The notes under the pieces are model-generated. The model saw nothing but the letters and a program-made list of their open reading frames with translations, had not been told where the DNA came from and made no database searches. Below, piece by piece: positions 34,548-48,167 of a stretch of 64,000 nt of DNA. A program made the translations under genes and the position numbers. Within the stretch, counting starts at the first letter, position 1. Every line of letters begins with the position of its first letter. The DNA comes from Frondihabitans sp. PhB188 (GTDB lineage Bacteria > Actinomycetota > Actinomycetes > Actinomycetales > Microbacteriaceae). The stretch covers positions 100,355 through 164,354 of the forward strand of contig NZ_RJUO01000004.1 in the NCBI RefSeq assembly GCF_003752365.1. The letters are read 5' to 3'.

Positions 34548-34910
34548 TCAGGCTAAGCCGCTCACGGCTGATGCGCCAGCCTCCTCGACCAGGCGCACCT
34601 TCACGTTGACAGCGACCTCGCCCCGAATCGACGGCTCTGCCCCCAGCCGCTCGAGAAGCAGCTCGCCCACCCGCCGGAGCGTCTCGGTGGCGGGTCTCTC
34701 GCCGGCAGTGGAGATGTGCGCGCTGACCGTCGTGAAGTCGTCGGCCCGGTCGATGTCGACGAGCACGTCCGGGACGCGCAGGGCGAGCCGCACGGCCACC
34801 GCCCCGGCGGCAGCCTCGAGGATCGGCTGCGCCGGGTAGACGCCCGAGACCCCCTCCGTCGCTCGGATGGCCGCCGTCAGCTGGCGGGAGAGCTCGGTGT
34901 CATCGGTCAT
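34548..34910 (-). CDS. Asp23/Gls24-like protein (short)
   Basis: A 120-residue protein, MTDDTELSRQLTAAIRATEG, resembling a degenerate Asp23/Gls24 domain: GVSGVYPAQPILEAAAGAVA, then VLVDIDRADDFTTVSAHIST and a C-terminal VAVNVKVRLVEE strand. I chose ATG at 34910, which has GGAGG about 11 nt upstream; ATG at 34937 lacks one. The gene overlaps the upstream Asp23 gene by 11 nt and completes the sigma-Asp23-Asp23 operon. Confidence 0.75.
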   Translation of the reverse strand: MTDDTELSRQLTAAIRATEGVSGVYPAQPILEAAAGAVAVRLALRVPDVLVDIDRADDFTTVSAHISTAGERPATETLRRVGELLLERLGAEPSIRGEVAVNVKVRLVEEAGASAVSGLA

Positions 34911-35499
34911 CGGTGCGGTCCCCTCCCGGGTAGACATCGTCGATCGTGACGTCGATCTGGCCGATGACGAGCTCGGTGTGCTCCGCCAGCGCGCGTGTGA
35001 TGCGCTCGCGAAGCCTGTCGGCCGTCTCGGCCACGGACATCCCGTACTCGAGGCCGGCCGTCACGTCGATGCGGATGGGCGCTCCGGGCGTCGTCACGTC
35101 TCCGTCCAGCACGCACCGGCCCATGATCACGCCGCCCATGGTGTCGCCGGCGCGGCGGATGACGCCTCGGACGGCCGCCTCGGTGAGTGCGAGCCGGAGC
35201 ACGGGGTTCGGATGCCCGACGGGGATGTCCCTCCCGGATCGGATCTCGGTCTTGATGGTGTCGAGGAGTCCTGAGATCCAGGCATCGTCGCGGGCAGGAT
35301 CGCGCCCGGACTCGTGCTCCAGCGCAGTGCGGGCGAGTTCCTGCATCCGGGTCATCCCCACGAGGGCGAGACGGCAGGCTGCGGAGGTCTCGATCGAGGG
35401 GTCGTACGGCGTGCGGCCTCGGTCGAGGTAGTCGCCGAGCTCTTCCATCGTGTGGCCGTCGAGGTCGTCTTCCGGCACGGAGGTAGCGTCGAATGTCAT
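34900..35499 (-). CDS. Asp23/Gls24 envelope-stress protein with N-terminal helical domain
   Basis: A 199-residue protein. The N-terminal half (DLDGHTMEELGDYLDRGRTP, then SAACRLALVGMTRMQELA) is helical and unlike the Asp23 core. The C-terminal half is an Asp23/Gls24 domain ending VIGQIDVTIDDVYPG. ATG at 35499 overlaps the sigma-factor stop by 4 nt and has GGAGG 7 nt upstream. The tight coupling and the helical N-terminal module suggest it may regulate that sigma factor, which is inference. Confidence 0.85.
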   Translation of the reverse strand: MTFDATSVPEDDLDGHTMEELGDYLDRGRTPYDPSIETSAACRLALVGMTRMQELARTALEHESGRDPARDDAWISGLLDTIKTEIRSGRDIPVGHPNPVLRLALTEAAVRGVIRRAGDTMGGVIMGRCVLDGDVTTPGAPIRIDVTAGLEYGMSVAETADRLRERITRALAEHTELVIGQIDVTIDDVYPGGDRTDDR

Positions 35500-36110
35500 C
35501 GCCATGCCTCCATTTCGTGGAGAACGAATCGTCGGGCGCGAGCCAGGAGGCCCCGCACGGTGGAGACCGGGATCTCGAGTGCGTCCGAGATCTCCTGGTA
35601 GCTGTAGCCGGCGGTCTCTCGTAGTAGCCAACACCGTCGCTGATCCGCGGGGAGTCTGTCGAGAGCCTCCCACACGGCGTCGAGCTGCAGGCGGGTCTCG
35701 ACGATCTTCTCGGGAGAGCGGGATTCGTGAGCCGGGGGGTTCACCTGGTCGATGTCGTCGTGATCGCGACGGACGCGGATCCTGTCGATCGCCTTGCGGG
35801 TGACGATGCGCATGAGCCAGTTGCGGACATGCGCGGGACTGTCGAGCTCGGCGATCTGCCGCCAGCCGGTCAGGAACGACTCCTGGACGACGTCGTCCGA
35901 CTCGATGTCGGAGCCGAGGAGCTTGGCGGAGTACACCCGCATGAGGGGCCCGTGTCGACGCGCGAGCATCTCGAACGCGTGCACGTCGCCGTCGGCGGCT
36001 CGCGCGGCGAGAGTCGCGTCAGCAGCCTCCGACAGCGGATCGAGGTCGACGATGACGGCCTCCCTGATCGATCGAACGTGCGGCCGGATCGGCCTCCACC
36101 TGACTACCAC
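35496..36110 (-). CDS. RNA polymerase sigma factor, ECF-like (region 2 and region 4)
   Basis: A sigma-70 family factor of about 185-204 residues. Region 2 is seen in MRVYSAKLLGSDIESDDVVQ, ESFLTGW and SPAHVRNWLMRIVTRKAIDR. Region 4 is seen in ALDRLPADQRRCWLLRETAG, YSYQEISDALEIPVSTVRGL. The start is uncertain. GTG at 36110 is the nearest canonical start, but the only strong ribosome-binding site (AGGGAGG) lies downstream, 5 nt before an in-frame ATC at 36053 where family alignment expects the N-terminus (VDLDPLSEA). It heads an operon with two Asp23-like genes. Confidence 0.85.
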   Translation of the reverse strand: MVVRWRPIRPHVRSIREAVIVDLDPLSEAADATLAARAADGDVHAFEMLARRHGPLMRVYSAKLLGSDIESDDVVQESFLTGWRQIAELDSPAHVRNWLMRIVTRKAIDRIRVRRDHDDIDQVNPPAHESRSPEKIVETRLQLDAVWEALDRLPADQRRCWLLRETAGYSYQEISDALEIPVSTVRGLLARARRFVLHEMEAWR

Positions 36111-37432: not shown

Positions 37433-37445
37433 ATGACGAAGTCAT
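37433..37445. promoter_or_regulatory. Short inverted repeat upstream of the Asp23 series
   Basis: ATGAC-GAA-GTCAT lies 93 bp before the Asp23 start, with a further half-site-like GTCA at about 37448. It could be an operator for the adjacent AraC regulator. Weak evidence. Confidence 0.3.
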
Positions 37446-37537
37446 TAGTCAATGCGTCTGAATGATGTGCCCCACGAACTCGGGTGCAGCTCTCCGGGTC
37501 CCGGGTAGCACGACAACAAATATCAAGGAGAAAGCAA

Positions 37538-37984
37538 ATGACGAACGTCACCCCCACCACGTCCAGCTCCGTCGCCAAGACCACCCCCGCCTCGGGAACC
37601 GCGACCGGCAAGAACACGATCGCCGAGGGCGTCGTCGAGAAGGTCGCCGGCATCGCCGCCCGCGAGGTGCCCGGCGTGCACGACCTCGGCAACGGTGCCG
37701 CTCGTGCCATCGGCGCGATCCGCTCCGCGATCAACCAGCAGGACCGCGGCCAGGGCATCAAGGTCGAGGTCGGCGAGAAGCAGGTCGCCGCTGACATCGT
37801 CGTCGTCGCCGAGTACCCGGTCGAGCTGCAGAAGCTCGCCGACAGCGTCCGCGCCAGCGTCACCGAGGCCATCTCGACCGTCGTCGGCATGGAGGTCACC
37901 GAGGTCAACGTCACCGTCTCCGACGTCTTCATCCCGTCGGACGACGAGGACAACGACACCGAGACCGAGAGCCGCGTCAAGTGA
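37538..37984 (+). CDS. Asp23/Gls24 family envelope stress protein
   Basis: A 148-residue protein with the full Asp23/Gls24 signature: NTIAEGVVEKVAGIAAREVP, GVHDL, then ADIVVVAEYPVELQKLADSV and EVTEVNVTVSDVFIP. Ser/Thr-rich start and acidic tail flank it. ATG at 37538 has AAGGAGA upstream. It leads a plus-strand operon in which the next four genes overlap by 1-4 nt. Asp23 in staphylococci is a membrane-tethered cell-envelope stress protein anchored by AmaP. Confidence 0.94.
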   Translation: MTNVTPTTSSSVAKTTPASGTATGKNTIAEGVVEKVAGIAAREVPGVHDLGNGAARAIGAIRSAINQQDRGQGIKVEVGEKQVAADIVVVAEYPVELQKLADSVRASVTEAISTVVGMEVTEVNVTVSDVFIPSDDEDNDTETESRVK

Positions 37985-38169
37985 CCTCCACTACCAAGGG
38001 AATGCTGATCGGCGCCGTGCTCGCGCTGACGGCAGTCGCATTCGGATTCTGGGCCATGATCCTGGTCGCTGTCGCGATCGTGATCGGCTGGGGTGTGGGC
38101 CGGGTCGTCGAGGGAAAGCTCGACGTGAAGTCCCTGTCTGACGCCCTCCGCGGGCGGCGGTCCTCGTGA
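37981..38169 (+). CDS. DUF2273-like small membrane protein
   Basis: A 62-residue protein with a two-part hydrophobic stretch (MLIGAVLALTAVAFGFWAMI, LVAVAIVIGWGVG) and a basic C-terminus (SDALRGRRSS). It matches the DUF2273 partner commonly found next to Asp23/AmaP genes. The GTG start overlaps the Asp23 stop by 4 nt. Confidence 0.85.
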   Translation: MTSTTKGMLIGAVLALTAVAFGFWAMILVAVAIVIGWGVGRVVEGKLDVKSLSDALRGRRSS

Positions 38170-38549
38170 CCGCGGCGGTGATGGCCGACTCCGTGCCAGT
38201 CGACGCCGCGGCCGCCCGCGGCCTCCATGGCCGCACGAAGATCACCTCGCGCGCAGTGCGCCGGGTCGTGTCGGCCGTCACCGCGGACGCTCTCAGCGTC
38301 AGCGCCTCCGACGTGTCGGTGGAACTCGCCGACCACGACGGCTCACTGACCGTGATCGCGAAGACGCCGATCCACGTCAGTCCGCTGGGCGACGTCGGGC
38401 GTCGTTCGAGCGGCACCCTGCTGGAACGCCTGACGGCCGCCCAGACCACCATCCGCGACCGCTGCCTGCAGCTGACCGGATCCTCCATCGGCCGGGTCGA
38501 CCTCCGCATCACGGGCGTCGACCTCCGTGAACGAAAGAGACTGTCATGA
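38166..38549 (+). CDS. Asp23/Gls24-related protein, divergent
   Basis: A 127-residue soluble protein. It has a pattern like a reduced Asp23 fold: GRTKITSRAVRRVVSAVTAD, then SVELADHDGSLTVIAKTPIH and a closing strand IGRVDLRITGVDLRE. GTG at 38166 overlaps the previous stop by 4 nt; ATG at 38181 is an alternative start. It ends in a 4-nt overlap with the DUF6286-like gene. Family placement is tentative, operon membership is clear. Confidence 0.75.
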   Translation: MTAAVMADSVPVDAAAARGLHGRTKITSRAVRRVVSAVTADALSVSASDVSVELADHDGSLTVIAKTPIHVSPLGDVGRRSSGTLLERLTAAQTTIRDRCLQLTGSSIGRVDLRITGVDLRERKRLS

Positions 38550-39121
38550 CGACCCCCGGCCTCTACCGCCGCGTCGTGCGACGCGAGACGCATTCGTCTC
38601 GTTCTGGCATCGCCATCGTCCTGGCAGTGCTCCTGATCCTCGTCTTCGCCTGGATCGGCGTCGAGGCTGTCCTCGCAGCACTGAAGCAGCCTGCCCTCCT
38701 GGCCTCGCCGAAAGACGCCGCGGTCACGATCCTCGACGCGGCCAGCGCCCCCGTGGGGCTGCTGACCGCCGCCGGGGCCGTCGTCGCGGTGATCGGGATC
38801 ATCCTGATCATCGTCGCGCTGGCACCCGGTCGCCGCGGCCGCCGCAGTGCGTCGTCTGACCGGACGGCGGCACTCGTCGACGACCGCGTGATCGCGCAGA
38901 GCATCGCCGGAACCGCCAGCTACGCCGGCGACATAGAGCCGGACCAGGTCAAGGTCACGGTCGGCAAGCGCTCCGTCGACGTCGACGTCACCCGTACGTC
39001 GGGGCGCACCGCCGACCTCCGCAGCATCCAGGAAGCCGTCGACGACGAGCTGTCGTCGTACGACTACAGCCCGAGCCTCCGCGGCAAGGTGCGCCTGTCC
39101 AAGGAAGGAACGGTCGCCTGA
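38546..39121 (+). CDS. DUF6286-like membrane protein of the Asp23 operon
   Basis: A 191-residue protein with two membrane segments (IAIVLAVLLILVFAWIGVEA and PVGLLTAAGAVVAVIGIILI). The C-terminal cytoplasmic domain (VKVTVGKRSVDVDVTRTSGR) resembles the Asp23-partner fold in AmaP and DUF6286 proteins. It probably helps tether Asp23-type proteins to the membrane. It overlaps both neighbours by 1-4 nt. Confidence 0.8.
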   Translation: MTTPGLYRRVVRRETHSSRSGIAIVLAVLLILVFAWIGVEAVLAALKQPALLASPKDAAVTILDAASAPVGLLTAAGAVVAVIGIILIIVALAPGRRGRRSASSDRTAALVDDRVIAQSIAGTASYAGDIEPDQVKVTVGKRSVDVDVTRTSGRTADLRSIQEAVDDELSSYDYSPSLRGKVRLSKEGTVA

Positions 39122-39726
39122 TGACCAGCACGAATCGATTCCTCAACCGTCTGCTCGTCTTCGTCGTCGGACTCGTCCTGCTTCTGGCAGGTGGAGCTGT
39201 AGCGGCCGGGGCGCTCCTCGCCGACGTGAAGAAGAACGTCAGCCAGTCGGCGAAGGACGCCACGCAGCCCACGTCGGACGCCCTCTCCGGCGGCCAGCCC
39301 TGGATCCTGTGGGTGACGGCCGTGGCCGCGCTCGTCCTGATCCTGCTGCTCCTGTGGTTCATCTTCCGGCAGGGCCGTGGGCGCACGAACACGCTCCTCG
39401 AGGTCGCCGGCGGCGAAGGCAAGGGCTCGCCCACCGGCGGAACCCTGACCATCGACGCGAAGGTCGCCGAGCAGGTGCTCGAGGAGTCTCTGGCACGCGA
39501 CCCGTCCATCGTGTCGGTCGACGTCAGCGCCTTCGAGGTCAAGAAGGAGAACGTGCTCCGCATCACGGCGCAGACCCGCCGCGGTGTCTCGCCGATCGAG
39601 GTGCGCCGGTCGATCGACCGCGCGGTCGCCGACTGGGACGCCCTCCTCGGAACCGCGACACCCGTCGTGATCCAGATCACCGGCGGGCTCCGCAGCCAGC
39701 TGACCGGCACCAGCCGCGTCGTATAG
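39121..39726 (+). CDS. AmaP-like alkaline-shock membrane anchor
   Basis: A 201-residue protein. Two membrane segments (LLVFVVGLVLLLAGGAVAAG; WILWVTAVAALVLILLLLWF) flank a short outside loop. The cytoplasmic domain includes LTIDAKVAEQVLEESLARDP, SIVSVDVSAFEV and a closing VIQITGGLRSQL. The layout matches AmaP, which holds Asp23 at the membrane. ATG shares one base with the previous stop (TGATG). Confidence 0.83.
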   Translation: MTSTNRFLNRLLVFVVGLVLLLAGGAVAAGALLADVKKNVSQSAKDATQPTSDALSGGQPWILWVTAVAALVLILLLLWFIFRQGRGRTNTLLEVAGGEGKGSPTGGTLTIDAKVAEQVLEESLARDPSIVSVDVSAFEVKKENVLRITAQTRRGVSPIEVRRSIDRAVADWDALLGTATPVVIQITGGLRSQLTGTSRVV

Positions 39727-39783
39727 CACGTCAACCCCACCCACCGACGGCCTCCGGGCCACCACGAGAAGAAGGAAATCACC

Positions 39784-39957
39784 ATGAGTGCAGCAGACAA
39801 GATCAAGGCCGCAGCCGAGACCGTCACCGGCAAGGCCAAGGAGGCCGTCGGCAACGCGACGGACAACGACAAGCTCGTCGCCGAGGGCAAGGCCGACCAG
39901 GTCAAGGGCAAGGGCCGCGACACTGCCGAAGACGTCAAGGACGCGTTCAAGAACTGA
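39784..39957 (+). CDS. CsbD-family stress protein
   Basis: A 57-residue hydrophilic protein: MSAADKIKAAAETVTGKAKE, AVGNATDNDKLVAEGKADQV, ending KGKGRDTAEDVKDAFKN. This is the CsbD signature, a small helical protein under general-stress control in Bacillus. ATG at 39784 has AAGGA upstream. It is the last gene before a strong terminator. Confidence 0.95.
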   Translation: MSAADKIKAAAETVTGKAKEAVGNATDNDKLVAEGKADQVKGKGRDTAEDVKDAFKN

Positions 39958-39964
39958 TCGCTTT

Positions 39965-39992
39965 CGGCCCCCGCCCACACGGGCGGGGGCCG
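39965..39992 (+). terminator. Strong hairpin terminator after csbD-like gene
   Basis: Perfect 12-bp arms (39965-39976 and 39981-39992), all G/C, with a 4-nt loop ACAC. It starts 7 nt after the csbD-like stop. Confidence 0.9.
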
Positions 39993-40093
39993 ATCCTCTC
40001 CCCCGTCGAGACGAACACCCCGAGCGACCGCCACCGGCCACCGACGCGAGCTTCGCCCCGCAGATTCCCTCGCACCGACACGAAAGTCCCCCC

Positions 40094-40894
40094 GTGAGCC
40101 AGAAGAAGCCCGTCAGCCGGTCCACTGCTGAGCAACGACGCCAGCAGGCGCAGACCTACCCCACCACCTCCCGCCTCCTCGCCGAAGTGTTCGGCACGTT
40201 CCTCCTCGTCTTCGGAGGCGTGGGCACCGCTCTCTTCGCCTCGGCGTTTCCCACCAGCCAGAACCCCCTCGGCGTCGGCTTTCTCGGTGTCGCACTGGCG
40301 TTCGGCCTCACCGTGATGGCGGGCATCTACGCCGTCGGCCACATCTCCGGCGGGCACTTCAACCCCGCCGTCACCGTCGGCCTGGCGATCTCCGGCCGTA
40401 CCGAGTGGCGGCATGTTCCGGGCTACATCGTCGCGCAGATCGTCGGCGGCGCGATCGCTTCCAGCGTCCTCGCCCTCATCGCCGCCGACGGGCCCTCGAA
40501 CTACTTCGCCTCGGCTCGCGACAGCGGCTTCGCCTCCAACGGGTTCGGCACCTCGTCTCCCGGAGGATTCGGCCTCGGCGCCGTCTTCCTGGCCGAAGTC
40601 GTCCTGACCGCCGTGTTCGTCACCGTCATCCTCTCGATCACGGCGAAGCCCGAGTACAAGGCCGTCGCCCCCATCGGAATCGGATTCACGCTCACGCTGA
40701 TCCACCTCATCAGCATCCCGATCAGCAACACCTCGGTGAACCCCGCCCGTTCCATCGCCGCCGCGATCTACGGCGGACCCACCGCTCTGGGGCAGCTCTG
40801 GGTGTTCATCGTCGCTCCGCTCGTCGGAGCCGCCATCGCAGGTCTCCTGCATCGTCAGCTCTCACGGACTCGCGCTCTCACTCTGAGCGACTAG
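40094..40894 (+). CDS. aqpZ: Aquaporin (MIP family), AqpZ-like
   Basis: A 266-residue water channel with six membrane segments. Both half-helix motifs are intact: GGHFNPAVTVG and SVNPARS. The residue before the second motif set (IHLISIPISNTSVNPARS) keeps the His of water-selective AqpZ, rather than the Gly of glycerol facilitators. A 30-residue basic N-terminal tail precedes the first segment. The start is GTG at 40094. Its place in a stress island suggests a role in osmotic shifts. Confidence 0.92.
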   Translation: MSQKKPVSRSTAEQRRQQAQTYPTTSRLLAEVFGTFLLVFGGVGTALFASAFPTSQNPLGVGFLGVALAFGLTVMAGIYAVGHISGGHFNPAVTVGLAISGRTEWRHVPGYIVAQIVGGAIASSVLALIAADGPSNYFASARDSGFASNGFGTSSPGGFGLGAVFLAEVVLTAVFVTVILSITAKPEYKAVAPIGIGFTLTLIHLISIPISNTSVNPARSIAAAIYGGPTALGQLWVFIVAPLVGAAIAGLLHRQLSRTRALTLSD

Positions 40895-40933
40895 CCAGCC
40901 CCACCTGTCACTGCCCCACCGAAGGAGAACCAC

Positions 40934-41911
40934 ATGACCGACGCAGTCACCGGAGACGCAACCCGGCCTCAGCCGGCACCCGTCGACCTCACCGGAATCG
41001 ACCCGCACCACGCCGAGCAGGAGAGCCCGGAGCACCTTCTCGGCACGACGGTCGCCGAGACGGCCGCCGCGGTGACCGGAGTCCACCACCTCGGCGGCGT
41101 CGCCGCGCGCACCCTCGACCGCGCTCGCCGTCAGGTGCTCGGCACCTCGACCGCCCCCGGCGTGACGGTGGCGGTCGAGGACGGCACCACCGTCATCGAC
41201 CTCGACATCGTCGTCGAGTACCCGCACGCCATCGACGACGTCGTCGACGAGACCCGCGTCCAGGTCGCTCACGCGGCTCGTCAGCTCGCAGCCGGTCCGG
41301 TCAGCGTCAACATCACCGTCACGGATATCCACGGTCCGTTCGACCAGGACCCGGCGATCCTCGACGCGATCGACCAGGCTGGCGAGAAGGCTCGCGATCT
41401 GCGCGACCAGGCCGGCGAGAAGGCCAGAGACCTGCGCGACCAGGCCGGTGAGACGGCCCAGGATCTGCGTGACCGGGCCGGTGCGACGGCGGACGACCTC
41501 CGTGATCGGGCGGACGACCTCCGGGATCAGGCCGACGTGAAGGTCGCCGAGATGAAGGAGAAGGCGGGGGAGCTGAAGGCGCAGGTCAGCGACACCGCAA
41601 GCGATCTCCGTGACCAGGCGGGGGCAGTCGCCTCCGACGCCGGTGACAAGGTCGACGAGTTCGCGGCCAAGGCCGATGCGAAGGTCGACGCTTTCCAGGC
41701 GCAAGCCGAAGCGAAGGTCGACGAGGTGGCCGAGTCCGCTTCGGATGCGGCCGAGACCGCCGGCGACGACCTGGCGCGACTCGACGCGAAGGCCGATCAG
41801 AAGCTCGACGAGCTGGACGCGAAAGCGGATCAGAAGCTCGACGAGCTCGACGATGCCGTCGACGCTCGGCGCCCTGCAGCCGAGCGTCCCGCCGACGAGC
41901 CCCGACCGTGA
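40934..41911 (+). CDS. Asp23/Gls24 domain fused to LEA-like 11-residue repeats
   Basis: A 325-residue protein. Residues about 33-135 form an Asp23/Gls24 domain (HLLGTTVAETAAAVTGVHHL; DLDIVVEYPHAIDDVVDETR; VSVNITVTDI). From residue 147 come 11-residue repeats: DQAGEKARDLR twice, DQAGETAQDLR, DRAGATADDLR. Less regular amphipathic Ala/Lys/Asp repeats follow to about residue 310, including DAKADQKLDEL twice. Such 11-mers occur in LEA group 3 and apolipoprotein-like membrane-surface helices. The underlying 33-bp DNA repeats start at 41372. Confidence 0.9.
   Translation: MTDAVTGDATRPQPAPVDLTGIDPHHAEQESPEHLLGTTVAETAAAVTGVHHLGGVAARTLDRARRQVLGTSTAPGVTVAVEDGTTVIDLDIVVEYPHAIDDVVDETRVQVAHAARQLAAGPVSVNITVTDIHGPFDQDPAILDAIDQAGEKARDLRDQAGEKARDLRDQAGETAQDLRDRAGATADDLRDRADDLRDQADVKVAEMKEKAGELKAQVSDTASDLRDQAGAVASDAGDKVDEFAAKADAKVDAFQAQAEAKVDEVAESASDAAETAGDDLARLDAKADQKLDELDAKADQKLDELDDAVDARRPAAERPADEPRP
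41372..41503 (+). repeat. Four 33-bp in-frame repeats in the Asp23-LEA gene
   Basis: Units at 41372-41404, 41405-41437, 41438-41470 and 41471-41503 each encode one 11-residue helix repeat. The units differ at the DNA level, so the array is not a very recent expansion. Confidence 0.88.
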
Positions 41912-42315
41912 AGACCAGGTCGCGCGGCTACGGCCGCCACCCCAAGCCGCGAGCGGCGTGGACAGCGCTCATCGTCGCCGTCGTCCTCTGCGCCGTGATC
42001 GTCGTCGGGGTGCTCCTGCCGGTCCTCGGACTCATCGGCGGGGTGGGTGCCACCACCTTCGGCACCCTCCGAATCCCGGTCGGCGCGATCACGGCGTCGA
42101 TCGTGATCAGCTACCTCATCGGCCTCGGCTTCCTGGCGCTCACTTTCCTCGCTCGTTTCGGGGCTCTGGCCTGGATCACGGCCGTCGCCGCGATCATCGC
42201 CACGCTCGTGGGGTCGCTCTGGCCCCTGTTCGCGACGGCATTCGCCAGCGTCGCTCAGGTCCAGGACGTCATCCCCTTCGTCCAGGAGCTGATCGGCCGC
42301 ATCACCGGCAGCTGA
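41908..42315 (+). CDS. Small integral membrane protein, unknown function
   Basis: A 135-residue protein with a basic N-terminus (KTRSRGYGRHPKPRAAW) and three hydrophobic segments (about 18-45, 58-85 and 88-115). I recognise no family beyond a hypothetical actinobacterial membrane protein. The GTG start overlaps the Asp23-LEA stop by 4 nt, so the two are co-translated and probably act together at the membrane. Confidence 0.8.
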   Translation: MKTRSRGYGRHPKPRAAWTALIVAVVLCAVIVVGVLLPVLGLIGGVGATTFGTLRIPVGAITASIVISYLIGLGFLALTFLARFGALAWITAVAAIIATLVGSLWPLFATAFASVAQVQDVIPFVQELIGRITGS

Positions 42316-42356
42316 TCAGCCCTTGTCTCACCCCTCCACAACCGAAAGAGACCACC

Positions 42357-42578
42357 ATGCGCAACAAGATCATCCTCGTCGGCCTCATCGCCGCAGTCAT
42401 CTACTTCCGCGGGGCACGCTCGCACCGTCCCGTGAAGGGCAAGCAGCCTGAGACGCTCCGCCACCAAGCCGAGCGGCTCTGGAAGGACCCGAAGTCCGCC
42501 AAGGCCCGCAAGAAGCTCGGCAAGAAGGTGGCTGCCGCCGCGGCCGACCGTGTCAAGAAGGCCCGCAAGGCCTCCTGA
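42357..42578 (+). CDS. Small basic membrane-associated protein
   Basis: A 73-residue protein, MRNKIILVGLIAAVIYFRGA, with one short hydrophobic N-terminal segment. A strongly basic tail follows (KDPKSAKARKKLGKKVAAAA, ending KKARKAS). ATG at 42357 has GAAAGAGA upstream, as do its neighbours at 42613 and 40934. The tail resembles YtxH-type stress proteins. Function unknown. Confidence 0.8.
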   Translation: MRNKIILVGLIAAVIYFRGARSHRPVKGKQPETLRHQAERLWKDPKSAKARKKLGKKVAAAAADRVKKARKAS

Positions 42579-42791: not shown

Positions 42792-44270
42792 TCAGCGCGG
42801 CACGACCGGAAGGTCGAGCTCGAAGACGGCGCCGGAGGGCACCGCCAGGCAGCGGACGTCGCCGCCGTGCGCGCGGGCGATGCCCCGGGCGATGGGGAGG
42901 CCGAGTCCTGCGCCCCCCGATGCCTGCTCGCGCCCCGCATCGAGTCGAACGAGCCGGTCGAAGATCCGCTCTCTGTCGGATGCAGGAACTCCGGGACCGT
43001 CGTCGGCGATCGACAGGCGGGCGCGCGATTCGTCCGGCGGGTCGAGAGTCAGCGTCACGTGCCCGTGTCCTCTCGTCGCGCGCGCGGCGTTGTCCACGAG
43101 GTTGCCGATCACCTGAGCGAGACGGTCGGCATCGCCCCGAACGGTCACCGGCTCCTCGGGAAGCTGCGTCGTCACCTGAAGCGCGGGGTGTCGGAGACGG
43201 TGCCGATCCGCTTCGGCGCGGACGAGGTCGCCGAGATCGACCGGAGCCAGATCGAGCTCCAGCCCCCGGTCGACACGCGCCATCATCAGCATGTCGTCGA
43301 TGAGGCGCGAAGCACGGCCCGCCTCCCGTGCCACATGGACGGCTAGCCGCTCGCGGTCCGCAGGGTCGGCGGGCGCGCGGACGAGAGTGTCGGCGGCTGC
43401 CCTCATGCCTGCGACGGGAGTCCGGAGCTCGTGCGCGGCGTCCGAGACGAAGGAGCGCACCCGCGCCTCGGCTTCCACGGCCTTCCGCTCGGCCCCCTCC
43501 ACGGCGTCGAGCATCTCGTCGAAGGCCAGGGCGACCCGGCCGATCTCGGTCCGGGGCTTGGCCGGCGTCAGGCGTCGACCGCGGTCGCCGCCGGCGATCG
43601 ACCTCGCGACGGCCGACATCCGGTCGAGGGGTCGGAGCGAGATGCGCATGACGAGAACCAGCCCGGCCGCTGCGATCAGCAGGAAGCCGGCGGATGCGCC
43701 GAGCATGACCCAGCGAAGCTGAGCGAGGGTCTGTCCGACCGACGAGGCGTCGGCCGTCAGCGTGATCGTCGAGCCGTCACTCAGGCGGGAGACGAGGGTG
43801 ATGATCTGATCGTCCGCAGTGATCGTGGATGAGCTGATGGACACCGTCGCGGTCGGTGTCGCGGTGGACTGCGCCGGCGAAGTGGAATCCGCTGTCGGAG
43901 GCTGCTCATTCGCCGGCCCCGGCAGCCCCGCACCCGCCTTGGGTCCGGCCCGCAACTGAGCGGGCGTCGGGCCGGCGACCACGGAGTTGCCGTCTTCGTC
44001 GCGGATGACGACCGACAGCCCCTGGAACGACAGGCGCTCGGCGAGGTCGTCCGAGCTGACGGTGCCCACCAGGGCGGTGGCCGCCGACGCTCGATCGCGG
44101 AGGCGGTCTTCGATCTGCCCGCGGAGTCGTGATCCGAGAGTGGCCTCGACGGTCACTGCGAGGGCGCCGAGCAGGAGCACCAGCAGAAGCAGCACGGCCA
44201 CTACGGCGCGGAGGCGCAGGGAGCCCGTGCGGAGCGGCTGCCCCGACGGCGGTGGCGATCCTGCGTTCAT
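42792..44270 (-). CDS. Sensor histidine kinase of an OmpR-type two-component system
   Basis: A 492-residue membrane kinase. Two membrane segments (AVVAVLLLLVLLLGALAVTV; WVMLGASAGFLLIAAAGLVL) flank a sensor domain of about 145 residues with a Ser/Thr/Pro-rich insert. HAMP follows, then the HisKA box VSDAAHELRTP with His280, and the ATPase boxes LVDNAARAT, ADDGPGVP and GGAGLGLPIA. It overlaps its regulator gene by 4 nt. Confidence 0.95.
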   Translation of the reverse strand: MNAGSPPPSGQPLRTGSLRLRAVVAVLLLLVLLLGALAVTVEATLGSRLRGQIEDRLRDRASAATALVGTVSSDDLAERLSFQGLSVVIRDEDGNSVVAGPTPAQLRAGPKAGAGLPGPANEQPPTADSTSPAQSTATPTATVSISSSTITADDQIITLVSRLSDGSTITLTADASSVGQTLAQLRWVMLGASAGFLLIAAAGLVLVMRISLRPLDRMSAVARSIAGGDRGRRLTPAKPRTEIGRVALAFDEMLDAVEGAERKAVEAEARVRSFVSDAAHELRTPVAGMRAAADTLVRAPADPADRERLAVHVAREAGRASRLIDDMLMMARVDRGLELDLAPVDLGDLVRAEADRHRLRHPALQVTTQLPEEPVTVRGDADRLAQVIGNLVDNAARATRGHGHVTLTLDPPDESRARLSIADDGPGVPASDRERIFDRLVRLDAGREQASGGAGLGLPIARGIARAHGGDVRCLAVPSGAVFELDLPVVPR

Positions 44271-44950
44271 CGAGCCGGCTCGGAGACGGCGACCCGGTAG
44301 CCGATGCCGCGCACCGTGTGGATGAGCCGGCTGCCGTGCGCCTCCATCTTGCGGCGGAGCGAGCTCAGGTGCACCTCGACGAGGTTGGGGTCGTAGTCGT
44401 CGTACCCCCAGACCTGCGTCAGGATCTGGCCTTTCGAGAGCGTCCGGCCGCGGCTCGACGCGAGGAACTCCAGCAGGCGGAACTCGGTGGCCGTCAGATC
44501 GAGCCGATGCCCGCCGCGAGAGACGAGCGCCGCCTCCTGGTCGATCAGCAGATCGCCGATCTCGATCACCGACGGCACGCGGCCCCGCCGACGAAGAACA
44601 GCCGTGACCCGGGCGATGAGCTCGGCCATCGCGAACGGCTTGACGAGGTAGTCGTCGATGCCCTCCGAGAAGCCCCGGAGCCGGTCGTCGACCTCGTCGC
44701 GGGCTGTGAGCATCACGACCGCGGCGTCGGACACCGTGCGGACGGTCTGCGCGAGCTGGATACCGCTCGGTCCCGGCAGCATCCAGTCGAGAACGACCAG
44801 ATCCGGCAGGAACGAGGCGAGCTCGCCGGTCAGCTCGAAGCCGTCTGCCGCTGTTCGACACGAGAAGCCCTCCGCGTGCAGGGCGGTGGCGACGGAGGTG
44901 CGGATCGTCTCGTCGTCGTCGACGATCAGGACGCGGGCAGGGTTGGGCAT
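44267..44950 (-). CDS. OmpR-family response regulator
   Basis: A 227-residue regulator. The receiver domain has the acidic pair DDDE at 11-14, phospho-acceptor Asp55 (VVLDWMLPG), Thr in MLTARDE and Lys in YLVKPFAMAEL. The C-terminal winged helix shows LDLTATEFRLLEFLASSRGR, VWGYD and VEVHLSSLRRKM. It is translated just before its kinase. The first gene across the divergent gap, at 45088, is a plausible target. Confidence 0.96.
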   Translation of the reverse strand: MPNPARVLIVDDDETIRTSVATALHAEGFSCRTAADGFELTGELASFLPDLVVLDWMLPGPSGIQLAQTVRTVSDAAVVMLTARDEVDDRLRGFSEGIDDYLVKPFAMAELIARVTAVLRRRGRVPSVIEIGDLLIDQEAALVSRGGHRLDLTATEFRLLEFLASSRGRTLSKGQILTQVWGYDDYDPNLVEVHLSSLRRKMEAHGSRLIHTVRGIGYRVAVSEPAR

Positions 44951-46154: not shown

Positions 46155-46477
46155 TGACGACTCAGCCCGGCAATCATCGGGCGCGAGGTACCGCCAGAGT
46201 CGCTGACTGCAGGTCACGCCGTCATTTGCAACCCCCGGACAAGTCGATTTCGAGGTGACAGTGTCCAACAGGAACCCGCACCGGGTCGAACGCCGCGAAA
46301 TCTCTCCACGATTTCTGAACCGCACTCGTGAATTCACGTCGTGCGTCGTGGGCAGCCCGCGCTGACCGATCACGCCGACTCATCGGCGTGCGTCCTCGCG
46401 GAGTTCCTCGAGCCCGTGTGCGCGGTGCCGCCCTACCGGTGCCGCGCACACGCTTCACCCATCGAAAGAAGATCCCC
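46155..46477. promoter_or_regulatory. 323-bp leader of the YtxH-like operon, with hairpin
   Basis: No gene is seen. CACGCCGA-ctca-TCGGCGTG (46371-46390) forms a compact 8-bp hairpin about 90 nt before the next start codon. The region should hold the operon promoter, but I cannot assign a sigma factor. Confidence 0.5.
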
Positions 46478-47164
46478 ATGAGCACCTCTCCTCCCGACGA
46501 CCAGACGTCCTTCTCGCCCCCGTTCGACCAGGCAGGCAAGGTCGCGGCCGACGCCCAGGACGCCGCCGGACATATTGCCGGCGTCTCAAAGGAGCAAGCC
46601 GGAGACGTCGCATCCGAGGTGAAGAGCCAGGCGAAGGAGCTCTTCTCTCAGACGACCTCCGAGCTCAAGGATCAGGCCGGCGCTCAGCAGCAGAAGGTGG
46701 CCGGGGGCCTGCGGTCGGTCTCCGACGAGCTCTCCTCGATGGCGGAGAAGTCCGACGGGAACGGCGTCGCCTCCGAACTCGTGCGCAACCTCTCCGGCCG
46801 CGCAGGATCGGCAGCGACCTGGCTCGACGGCCGCGATCCCGGTTCCCTTCTCGACGAGGTGAAGTCGTTCGCCGCCCGCAAGCCGGGTACGTTCATCGTG
46901 ATCGCAGCGGGGGCCGGGATCCTGGCCGGTCGCCTCGCCAAATCGCTGGCCGCCGAATCCAAGTCGGCACCGTCGGCACCGTCGTCGCCGGACACCGCTC
47001 ACGGCCCCCTCACGCACGTCGCCGAGACGGGCTACGAGCGGACTGCCGCGCCGGTCGAGACAGTCACGTCGTCGTCCGACTTCGACGAGTACGGCGACAC
47101 CCGCACGTTCGACGAGCTCGTCGACGGACGAGCCTCGGAGCACCCGCTCGGAGAGCAGCGATGA
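46478..47164 (+). CDS. YtxH-like helical stress protein
   Basis: A 228-residue protein. The first 140 residues are amphipathic helix rich in Ala, Lys, Asp, Gln and Ser. One hydrophobic segment (TFIVIAAGAGILAGRLAKSL) is followed by an acidic, Ser-rich tail. The layout, and the two genes after it, match the actinobacterial set found with holin-like and DUF3618 proteins. ATG at 46478 lies after GAAAGAAG. The stop overlaps the next gene by 4 nt. Confidence 0.8.
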   Translation: MSTSPPDDQTSFSPPFDQAGKVAADAQDAAGHIAGVSKEQAGDVASEVKSQAKELFSQTTSELKDQAGAQQQKVAGGLRSVSDELSSMAEKSDGNGVASELVRNLSGRAGSAATWLDGRDPGSLLDEVKSFAARKPGTFIVIAAGAGILAGRLAKSLAAESKSAPSAPSSPDTAHGPLTHVAETGYERTAAPVETVTSSSDFDEYGDTRTFDELVDGRASEHPLGEQR

Positions 47165-47589
47165 CCGACCCGGACTATCGCCCCGACGATCTCACAGCCG
47201 AGGAGAGAGCGGCCACGACCTCTCTTGGCGATCTCCTGTCGGGGGTGTCGCAGGACATCTCGACTCTGTTCCGCCAGGAGGTCGAACTCGCCAAGGCCGA
47301 GCTGACCGAGTCGGCGAAGAAGGCAGGCAAGGGTGCGGGAATGTTCGGCGGAGCAGGGCTCACAGGTCTGTTCTCCTTGCTCTTCCTGTCGATCGCGGCC
47401 TGGTGGGGTCTCGGCTTCGTGCTGAACAACGCCCTGTCGGCCGTCGTGGTCGCCGTGGTCTACGGGGTCGTGGCCCTGATCCTGTTCCTGCGGGGCAAGA
47501 AGGAACTCAAAGACATCACGGGAGCGCCGAAGACGGTCGACACCCTCAAGAAGATCCCCGAAACGATGAAGCCGGGAGGCACCGCATGA
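47161..47589 (+). CDS. Phage-holin-superfamily-III-like membrane protein
   Basis: A 142-residue protein with a helical N-terminal domain (LGDLLSGVSQDISTLFRQEV, ELAKAEL) and two membrane segments (LFSLLFLSIAAWWGLGFVLN; LSAVVVAVVYGVVALILFLR). Such proteins are chromosomal and widespread in Actinobacteria. Despite the family name, no phage genes lie nearby. It overlaps both neighbours by 4 nt. Confidence 0.88.
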   Translation: MTDPDYRPDDLTAEERAATTSLGDLLSGVSQDISTLFRQEVELAKAELTESAKKAGKGAGMFGGAGLTGLFSLLFLSIAAWWGLGFVLNNALSAVVVAVVYGVVALILFLRGKKELKDITGAPKTVDTLKKIPETMKPGGTA

Positions 47590-48167
47590 GCGACACCGAT
47601 GGCACCAGCAAGACGCCTGACCAGATCCGAGCAGAGATCGACGCGACGAGGAGCGAGCTCGGCACGAACGTCGATGCGCTCGCCGACAAGGTCAATCCGA
47701 CGCAGATCGCGCACCGCCAGGCCGACAAGGTCAAGAGCCGGTTCTCGGGCGTGAGAGAGACGGTCATGGGCAGCGTCCATGACAAGAAGGCGAGCGCAGG
47801 AACGGGCGCCGACGCCGTGAAGGACGCCGGCCAGCAGGCCGCCGACAAGGTCAAGGGCAACCCTCTCGCTGTCGGTCTCGTGGCCTTCGGCGCCGGCTGG
47901 CTGATCAGCTCGCTCATTCCCGCGTCGGACAAGGAGAAGGATCTCGCCGGACAGGTCAAGGAGAAGGCGGCTCCTCTCGTCGACCAGGCGAAGAGCGCGG
48001 CGCAGGACGTCGCGCAGAACCTCAAGGGCCCGGCGCAGGACGCCATCGGATCGGTCAAGAACACCGCGCAGGATGCCGTCGGCGCCGTGAAAGACGAGGC
48101 ACAGTCGTCGGCATCCGACGTCAAGGACACCGCGCAGGCCGCCAAGGACGACGTCCAGAGCTCCTGA
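47586..48167 (+). CDS. DUF3618 protein with amphipathic repeats
   Basis: A 193-residue protein. The DUF3618 motif is at the N-terminus (TPDQIRAEIDATRSELGTNV, DALADKVNP). A hydrophobic segment (NPLAVGLVAFGAGWLISSLI) follows near residue 100. The C-terminal 85 residues are Ala/Lys/Asp/Gln repeats such as AQDAVGAVKDEAQSS, similar in style to the LEA-like repeats at 41372. It closes the operon. Confidence 0.88.
   Translation: MSDTDGTSKTPDQIRAEIDATRSELGTNVDALADKVNPTQIAHRQADKVKSRFSGVRETVMGSVHDKKASAGTGADAVKDAGQQAADKVKGNPLAVGLVAFGAGWLISSLIPASDKEKDLAGQVKEKAAPLVDQAKSAAQDVAQNLKGPAQDAIGSVKNTAQDAVGAVKDEAQSSASDVKDTAQAAKDDVQSS

Follow-up and report, generated by a model that had tools for sequence, protein, structure and literature searches.

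The Asp23 protein of Staphylococcus aureus sits under the membrane by way of AmaP, and purified Asp23 forms long cord-like filaments; its molecular function was still called unclear in a 2020 report (PMC6954212). Helices of the 3-11 type occur in apolipoproteins, synucleins and perilipins, and under stress Hsp12 and several LEA proteins bind to membranes or fold on them (PMC6164224). LEA 11-mers alone raise the desiccation survival of Escherichia coli (PMC8670023), and proteins built of the motifs of the bacterial group 3 LEA (G3LEA) protein DosH raise the stress tolerance of E. coli (PMC10295645). In drying Curtobacterium aetherium, a member of the Microbacteriaceae, one Asp23 gene is up at all four points, and a second Asp23 gene and two CsbD genes are up at 50% water or less, the two Asp23 genes being comparable with the locus described here at the level of the Asp23 family (PMC12029717). 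The expression of an Asp23 gene of Streptomyces venezuelae falls after ethanol shock (PMC9769785). ECF groups 286 and 292 adjoin soluble Asp23-family proteins, which have been predicted to be anti-sigma factors (PMC8999054).

The window, by which we mean the whole stretch of 64,000 nucleotides of Frondihabitans sp. PhB188 DNA that was analysed, contains a gene run in which an Asp23 domain is fused to a tail of amphipathic 11-residue repeats (Table 1). The locus resembles the S. aureus Asp23/AmaP system in its Asp23 domain, in the presence of AmaP-like and DUF2273 partners in one run and in its envelope-stress setting, and differs from it in that a second, tailed Asp23 protein is encoded after the CsbD and aquaporin genes. 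To our knowledge, no repeat tail of this sort is present in the S. aureus protein. Like group 3 LEA proteins (LEA_4, bacterial DosH), the tail is hydrophilic and alanine-rich and consists of consensus-fitting 11-residue amphipathic units; unlike them, it is fused to a folded Asp23 domain, stays under the LEA_4 cut-off and fits the reversed pattern equally well. It also resembles apolipoproteins, alpha-synuclein, perilipin 4 and yeast Hsp12 in having 11-residue-spaced amphipathic helices with basic residues at the interface and acidic residues opposite, the apolipoprotein likeness being scored by PF01442 and the other three being compared through their description in PMC6164224. Unlike the exchangeable apolipoproteins, the tail stays under the PF01442 cut-off and has a weak nonpolar face, and no shared ancestry is implied. 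Asp23 proteins and LEA-like 11-mers are each known, and their joining as a family trait, with a tail that has changed repeatedly, appears to be new, as it was found in no paper of the literature searched, which lay mostly outside subscription journals.

Table 1. Features of the gene run and its surroundings, in window positions
Feature	Position	Strand	Remarks
Small conserved gene, next after the Asp23-family gene	34548..34937	-	no Pfam match at E 1
Asp23-family protein, encoded by the next gene after the sigma factor	34900..35499	-	start approximate; PF03780 30.1 bits, cut-off 28
ECF-type sigma factor, divergent from the run	35496..36107	-	start approximate; PF04542, PF08281 and PF07638 above cut-off
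AraC-type gene, precedes the run	36315		named by reading the sequence
Conserved TGAC-N17-CGTCTGA element, a candidate promoter for the run	37434..37461	+
Main asp23 gene, lacking a long tail	37484..37984	+	PF03780 85.6 bits; start probably ATG at 37538
DUF2273 small membrane protein	37981..38169	+	PF10031 32.4 bits, cut-off 25.4
Conserved protein of the run	38166..38549	+	127 aa; no Pfam family
DUF6286 / AmaP-like membrane protein	38546..39121	+	PF19803 40.3 bits, cut-off 35; NF033218 31.1 bits, below cut-off 55
AmaP-like membrane protein that may anchor Asp23	39121..39726	+	NF033218 42.3 bits, below cut-off 55
CsbD-like stress protein	39784..39957	+	PF05532 64.1 bits, cut-off 40
Aquaporin Z	40166..40894	+	start approximate; NF003838 E 1.3e-83, 280 bits, cut-off 256
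Fusion gene, Asp23 domain and 11-residue amphipathic repeat tail	40934..41911	+	325 aa
Asp23 domain of the fusion	41039..41329	+	residues 36-132; PF03780 E 1.2e-9, 39.0 bits, curated cut-off 28
Amphipathic repeat tail of the fusion	41372..41878	+	first exact unit at residue 147; predicted helices 140-231 and 235-315
Four tandem 33-base units	41372..41503	+	DQAGEKARDLR x2, DQAGETAQDLR, DRAGATADDLR
Coupled small hydrophobic protein	41908..42315	+	135 aa; no Pfam family over its cut-off
Small protein after the run	42357..42578	+	73 aa; relatives in some loci

The Asp23 domain and the repeat tail of the fusion protein

The preliminary description had read an Asp23 domain followed by near-perfect DQAGEKARDLR-type units and then looser repeats, and both its coordinates and its frame are right: the protein scores above the curated Asp23 cut-off (Table 1), its first two units are exactly DQAGEKARDLR, units 3 and 4 match at 9 and 7 of 11 positions, and looser units extend to about residue 310. 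Identity at a lag of 11 is seen at 74 of 173 tail residues, compared with a mean of 21.4 and a maximum of 36 in 2000 shuffles, and Tandem Repeats Finder reports periods of 33 bases at three separate places in the tail. The first two unit copies differ by four synonymous and no non-synonymous codon differences, and a late repeat pair, DAKADQKLDEL, by three and none, giving seven synonymous and no non-synonymous differences in the closest pairs together, whereas the remaining pairs among the first four copies show 3-6 synonymous and 2-4 non-synonymous differences. Since only 24% of random single changes in copies 1 and 2 would be synonymous, the lack of non-synonymous differences between the closest copies makes the protein repeat look to be under selection, in a comparison that leaves third-position codon bias uncorrected.

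Plotted on a helical wheel, the unit shows a face of two alanines and a leucine, flanked by lysine and arginine at 65°, with glutamate and aspartate at 131-164° and one arginine at 131°. Amphipathic helices of the apolipoprotein type, with basic residues flanking the nonpolar face and acidic residues opposite, are known as class-A helices, and the wheel order of the unit is this class-A arrangement. The nonpolar face of the tail is weak, with a mean hydrophobicity of -0.06 and a mean moment of 0.32, suggesting that lipid binding may be feeble. By composition the tail lies on the disordered side of the charge-hydropathy line (H of 0.39, boundary at 0.46). The helical wheel and disorder had both been named as checks in the preliminary description. 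A tight coiled coil, which had been named there, together with the lack of a stress effect on deletion, as the outcome that would undo the LEA comparison, finds no support in its heptad form: in the best 77-residue stretch of the tail the hydrophobic amplitude is 0.28 at 98.2° and 0.34 at 100° and drops to 0.13 at the heptad angle of 102.9°, and a heptad coiled coil was rejected on this weak signal, the rejection being confined to the heptad form as opposed to an 11-residue coil or hairpin. The G3LEA consensus is matched at 27 of 36 positions over four units, a fit equalled by none of 200 shuffles; the tail taken alone is less special when the pattern itself is permuted, 22 of 2000 permuted LEA patterns scoring as well.

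Gene organisation and putative control of the run

The fusion gene begins 39 bases after the end of the aquaporin Z gene, and its stop codon is overlapped by four bases (GTGA) by the gene for a hydrophobic protein, in agreement with the earlier claim that a translationally coupled membrane protein comes next. Judging from the spacing of the genes, the run from 37484 to 42578 is probably one transcript. Among 14 named loci, at least one of which is cut by a contig end (Clavibacter L083, cut in this way, is left out), the main asp23 gene is present in 12 and the aquaporin gene in 7, and a hydrophobic protein follows the fusion gene in 10, being missing in the four Clavibacter loci. The presence of Asp23, AmaP-like, CsbD and aquaporin genes beside a gene for an ECF-type sigma factor fits the envelope-stress setting that had been suggested from the fusion gene itself.

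The sigma factor gene and the Asp23-family gene directly after it are arranged as described for ECF groups in PMC8999054, the comparison being one of gene order, and by this analogy the Asp23-family protein is a candidate soluble anti-sigma factor. Two further clusters with relatives of this pair are present in the genome, on contigs C2 and C6. No textbook GGAAC-type ECF motif was found 5' of the first asp23 gene in seven upstream regions. The element TGAC-N17-CGTCTGA was spotted by eye in these seven regions and then searched with a loosened pattern, and (T/G)GAC-N17-CGTCTGA or a close form of it is present in all seven. With the loosened pattern it is found in 13 of 20 rows, namely 12 of 19 orthologous upstream regions and the Asp23 operon on contig C2 of the same genome, which is preceded by the element at C2:678914; it is missing in four Clavibacter, two Rathayibacter and the G016 rows, whose coordinates are estimated. 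Within the window the element occurs exactly once, and with up to two mismatches at 24 places against 30 expected by chance, so that a pattern of this length cannot count as rare by itself. In the whole genome, one mismatch or none is seen at 60 places against 15 for a control pattern, and four occurrences are exact: the one before this run, two inside long open reading frames (L163, L166) and one that is intergenic (L164, G000:C2, 800049-800076), 61 bases before a gene for an AI-2E transporter (PF01594, 182 bits) and preceded by a penicillin-binding-protein gene. The AI-2E transporter gene is a possible further member of the same putative regulon.

Other genes of the window were noted beside the run. 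A two-component sensor kinase and a response regulator, identified from translation, follow it on the minus strand at 42792-44950. Further on, at 46403-48167, lie genes for a repeat-bearing protein with no Pfam match, a Holin-X protein (PF07332) and a DUF3618 protein, the last of which ends in 11-residue repeats (lag-11 identity 0.36; 27.2 of the 90 bits required by the apolipoprotein profile). A similar three-gene set lies at about 118.4-120.6 kb on contig C6, near an Asp23 cluster at 113-116 kb.

Distribution of the subfamily and changes of the tail

A domain profile at E 1e-25 or better finds the subfamily in 32 of 299 sampled Microbacteriaceae genomes and in 11 of 85 genera, the named hosts including Frondihabitans, Subtercola, Clavibacter, Agreia, Rathayibacter and a Naasia metagenome-assembled genome; two of the seven genomes of the genus have no subfamily gene. 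Thirty of the genes were read out (two of the 32 genomes gave no locus), with tail length measured from where the profile match ends: 24 carry tails of 105-418 residues, one of them, in G036, with 201 masked residues, and six carry short ones of 8 to 61 residues. The preliminary description had recommended a search for other Asp23-LEA fusions; the tailed Asp23 protein is no isolated case. Short tails are also found in close relatives of long-tailed members, and a single genus holds both forms, long in G000, G003 and G004 and lacking in G002 and G006. The six members with no long tail indicate that some can do without it. A tree of the 30 domains requires at least six changes between long and short, three of them forced by the starred branches, and the long/short label is no more clustered on the tree than shuffled labels (mean 5.6). 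The protein of Frondihabitans G002 ends just after DQAGEKAR, where its stop codon overlaps the ATG of the next gene (ATGA), and its tail seems to have been either cut out or never expanded, with coupling to the next gene retained. The tail is a variable module of a Microbacteriaceae subfamily, missing in some close relatives.

A full-length profile search across the class gave matches in 64 of 345 actinobacterial genomes, and the stop-free matches, the window's own aside, reach no further than the domain, ending by profile position 152. From 30 loci of this search, with the window's own and four containing internal stop codons set aside, 25 other actinobacterial Asp23 genes were read, and none has a tail of 80 residues or more, the profile being blind to other kinds of tail. 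A whole-protein scan of the genome contigs returned 95 stretches fitting the pattern, of which none was confirmed; alignment of the domain succeeded. On plasmids, one distant Asp23 match was found (Streptomyces, 42%).

Charge order and periodicity in the tails of relatives

The tails barely align with one another and range from charge-rich (the window's own and that of G004) to alanine-rich (G003, G016 and G036). Scanned for its best 55-residue stretch, each tail yields a hydrophobicity spectrum, whose maximum lies at 97-101° in 23 of 24 cases and at 104° in G016. When 200 shuffles are scanned identically, the periodicity is reached by 10 or fewer in 19 of 24 tails and by two or fewer in 15, so that five tails fail at the 5% level. 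A lag of 11 is the strongest repeat lag, among lags of 4 to 29, in 18 tails. With the nonpolar face set independently of charge, lysine and arginine are nearer to it than aspartate and glutamate in all 23 testable tails (G179 has no usable window), and 18 of these, the window's own included, are matched by three or fewer of 300 charge permutations, that is, at the 1% level, the scanning windows overlapping and tails from one genus being related. The five that fail are G062 and G063 (4 of 300 each), G239 (27), G249 (30 of 299) and G290 (23). By this test, the class-A charge order on an amphipathic helix of 11- or 22-residue spacing is present in those 18 tails.

The published G3LEA consensus, Phi-Phi-Omega-X-Phi-Psi-Omega-Psi-Phi-X-Omega in tandem 11-mers (PMC10295645), is matched in 23 of 24 tails, each with a fit that no more than 2 of 200 shuffles reach, and over all tails one of 2000 permuted patterns scores as high, as is also the case when one tail is taken for each of the nine genera. 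The comparison with LEA proteins in the preliminary description holds to this extent and fails as a family assignment: against LEA_4 (PF02987) the tail reaches 16.6 bits of a cut-off of 51.1 (E 0.034), the Pfam scan at E 1 does not list this family for it, a different gene in the same genome does better (17.8 bits), and true membership of LEA_4 was rejected. The score of the consensus over all tails is 619; it falls to 419 when charges are swapped and stays at 618 when the pattern is reversed. This equal score of the reversed consensus means that the fit reflects the amphipathic charge order and not LEA ancestry, and so the tails appear to share the charge grammar of group 3 LEA proteins with no sign of common descent.

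By charge and hydropathy, 18 of 24 tails are placed on the disordered and 6 on the folded side of the boundary, with large nonpolar residues making up 6-18% (15% in the window's tail) and charged residues 20-44%. In relatives from Subtercola, Clavibacter, Rathayibacter and Naasia (L051-L053, L055-L063), the tail gives way to a short hydrophobic motif of beta-like character, examples being PEVTVIVDG, AAEFVVRVEVEPVD and NPVIVVVPVI, which is absent from the Frondihabitans tails read and was unstructured at low confidence in one AlphaFold2 run.

Profile and fold comparisons

No known repeat-family profile exceeds its cut-off in the tail. The best match is PF01442 (45.4 of 90 bits), followed by YtxH (28.8 of 37.5) and DUF883 (21.2 of 25.4); PF01442 is promiscuous, with matches in 13 of 14 control genomes, and a true apolipoprotein was rejected on both counts. 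A sequence search of the PDB gave as its best match the three helix bundle 4tql (E 1.7e-4), in the tail, the rest being at 0.097 or worse, and Foldseek found no match at E 0.001 or better. AlphaFold2 with 15 sequences predicts an Asp23 core whose block means are 81-91 except for residues 51-80, where they dip to 56-73. In VIA-align the Asp23 domain overlays C-terminal domains of cation transporters (MamM: Z 10.8, 1.8 Å, 78 residues), an alpha/beta arrangement in common that is not read as kinship.

Possible mechanism and alternative explanations

The 11-residue repeats of the tail are shaped like those of drought-protection and lipid-coating proteins, which suggests that the protein may coat the cell membrane from within under stress. 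The fusion protein may be a cytoplasmic peripheral membrane protein of two modules, in which the Asp23 domain would dock onto the Asp23/AmaP layer made from the same run, by analogy with S. aureus, and the tail, mostly unfolded in water, would fold on the inner leaflet as an 11/3 amphipathic helix, with alanine and leucine turned to the lipid, lysine and arginine at the interface and aspartate and glutamate facing the cytoplasm. It would be produced together with CsbD, aquaporin Z and the AmaP-like proteins on release of the neighbouring ECF-type sigma factor, the trigger presumably being osmotic, drying or other envelope stress, and the Asp23 layer would become an anchored coat of the LEA/Hsp12 kind. 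A tail of varying length, or none, would be expected if the dose of the coat outweighs its exact sequence. The S. aureus layer, the 3-11 helices, the LEA 11-mer work and the data on Curtobacterium together favour such an anchored, stress-made helix, and the fall of the Streptomyces gene on ethanol shock speaks against it. We give an Asp23-docked, conditionally folding amphipathic helix that coats the inner membrane face under stress a chance falling just short of even. On the best reading the tail would be LEA-like in its working, and a role of the fusion in drying is plausible.

The same repeats could instead build a stably folded structure. Right-handed coiled coils accommodate 11-residue spacing too, and the tail might be a stable hairpin or a hendecad coiled coil that oligomerises into a PspA/Vipp1-like or filament scaffold and is not a lipid coat. 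AlphaFold2 draws it as two long helices separated by a short break (residues 140-231 and 235-315, block means 42-83), and the Naasia orthologue in the same way (137-171 and 180-265), although the pTM values of 0.36 for the fusion and 0.37 for the orthologue mean that these models say nothing about packing. VIA-align overlays residues 169-321 on PspA (7abk; Z 8.9, rmsd 5.9, 149 residues aligned) and residues 169-308 on VIPP1 (7o3w; Z 8.8, rmsd 6.6), but the guide value for long helices is about 13, and below it a score may reflect a mere common arrangement. Two long helices with this weak overlay and the link to envelope stress are what the fusion has in common with the PspA_IM30 family; unlike PspA/Vipp1, it has no PF04012 match, a search of its genome giving a match on C1 only, where a separate PspA is encoded (C1:735162), and homology to PspA by sequence was rejected. 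The low content of large nonpolar residues and the high charge of the tails also speak against a stable hairpin or coil, which we consider unlikely.

Contact with lipid may be needless if the tail is a cytoplasmic protectant of the LEA type, chaperone-like or glass-forming, for which the Asp23 domain serves as a tether or concentrator. The consensus fit of the tails and the protection of E. coli by LEA 11-mers and DosH motifs (PMC8670023, PMC10295645) are in line with such a protectant, but the LEA_4 profile is missed, and docking to a membrane-bound Asp23 layer, if it takes place, would put the tail at the lipid; we regard this explanation as distinctly unlikely. A spacer, helical or disordered, that arose when 33-base repeats slipped in a high-GC genome and has little function beyond bulk would account for repeats that come and go, with their unclustered changes on the domain tree, and for the G002 gene, which stops right at the start of the next gene. 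Yet it would not be expected to keep its closest copies free of non-synonymous differences, or to retain charge order and periodicity in most tails across nine genera whose sequences barely align, and a mere spacer is accordingly the least probable of these explanations, improbable in our judgement. The anchored helix thus remains the preferred reading. Its furthest extension, in which the Asp23/AmaP layer would carry its own length-tunable synuclein/LEA-like coat, and expansion and loss of repeats would adjust the dose of inner-leaflet helix in different Microbacteriaceae and with it survival of drying, is doubtful.

Implications for the Microbacteriaceae

Members of the Microbacteriaceae live on leaves, in lichens and in soil. 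The family includes a desiccation-tolerant isolate from the stratosphere (PMC12029717). Orthologues with and without the tail occur in similar runs, which makes possible a direct test of whether Asp23 delivers a membrane-protecting helix. If this is true, the tailed Asp23 protein would be the bacterial equivalent of a LEA protein, anchored at the membrane and with a clear genetic address.
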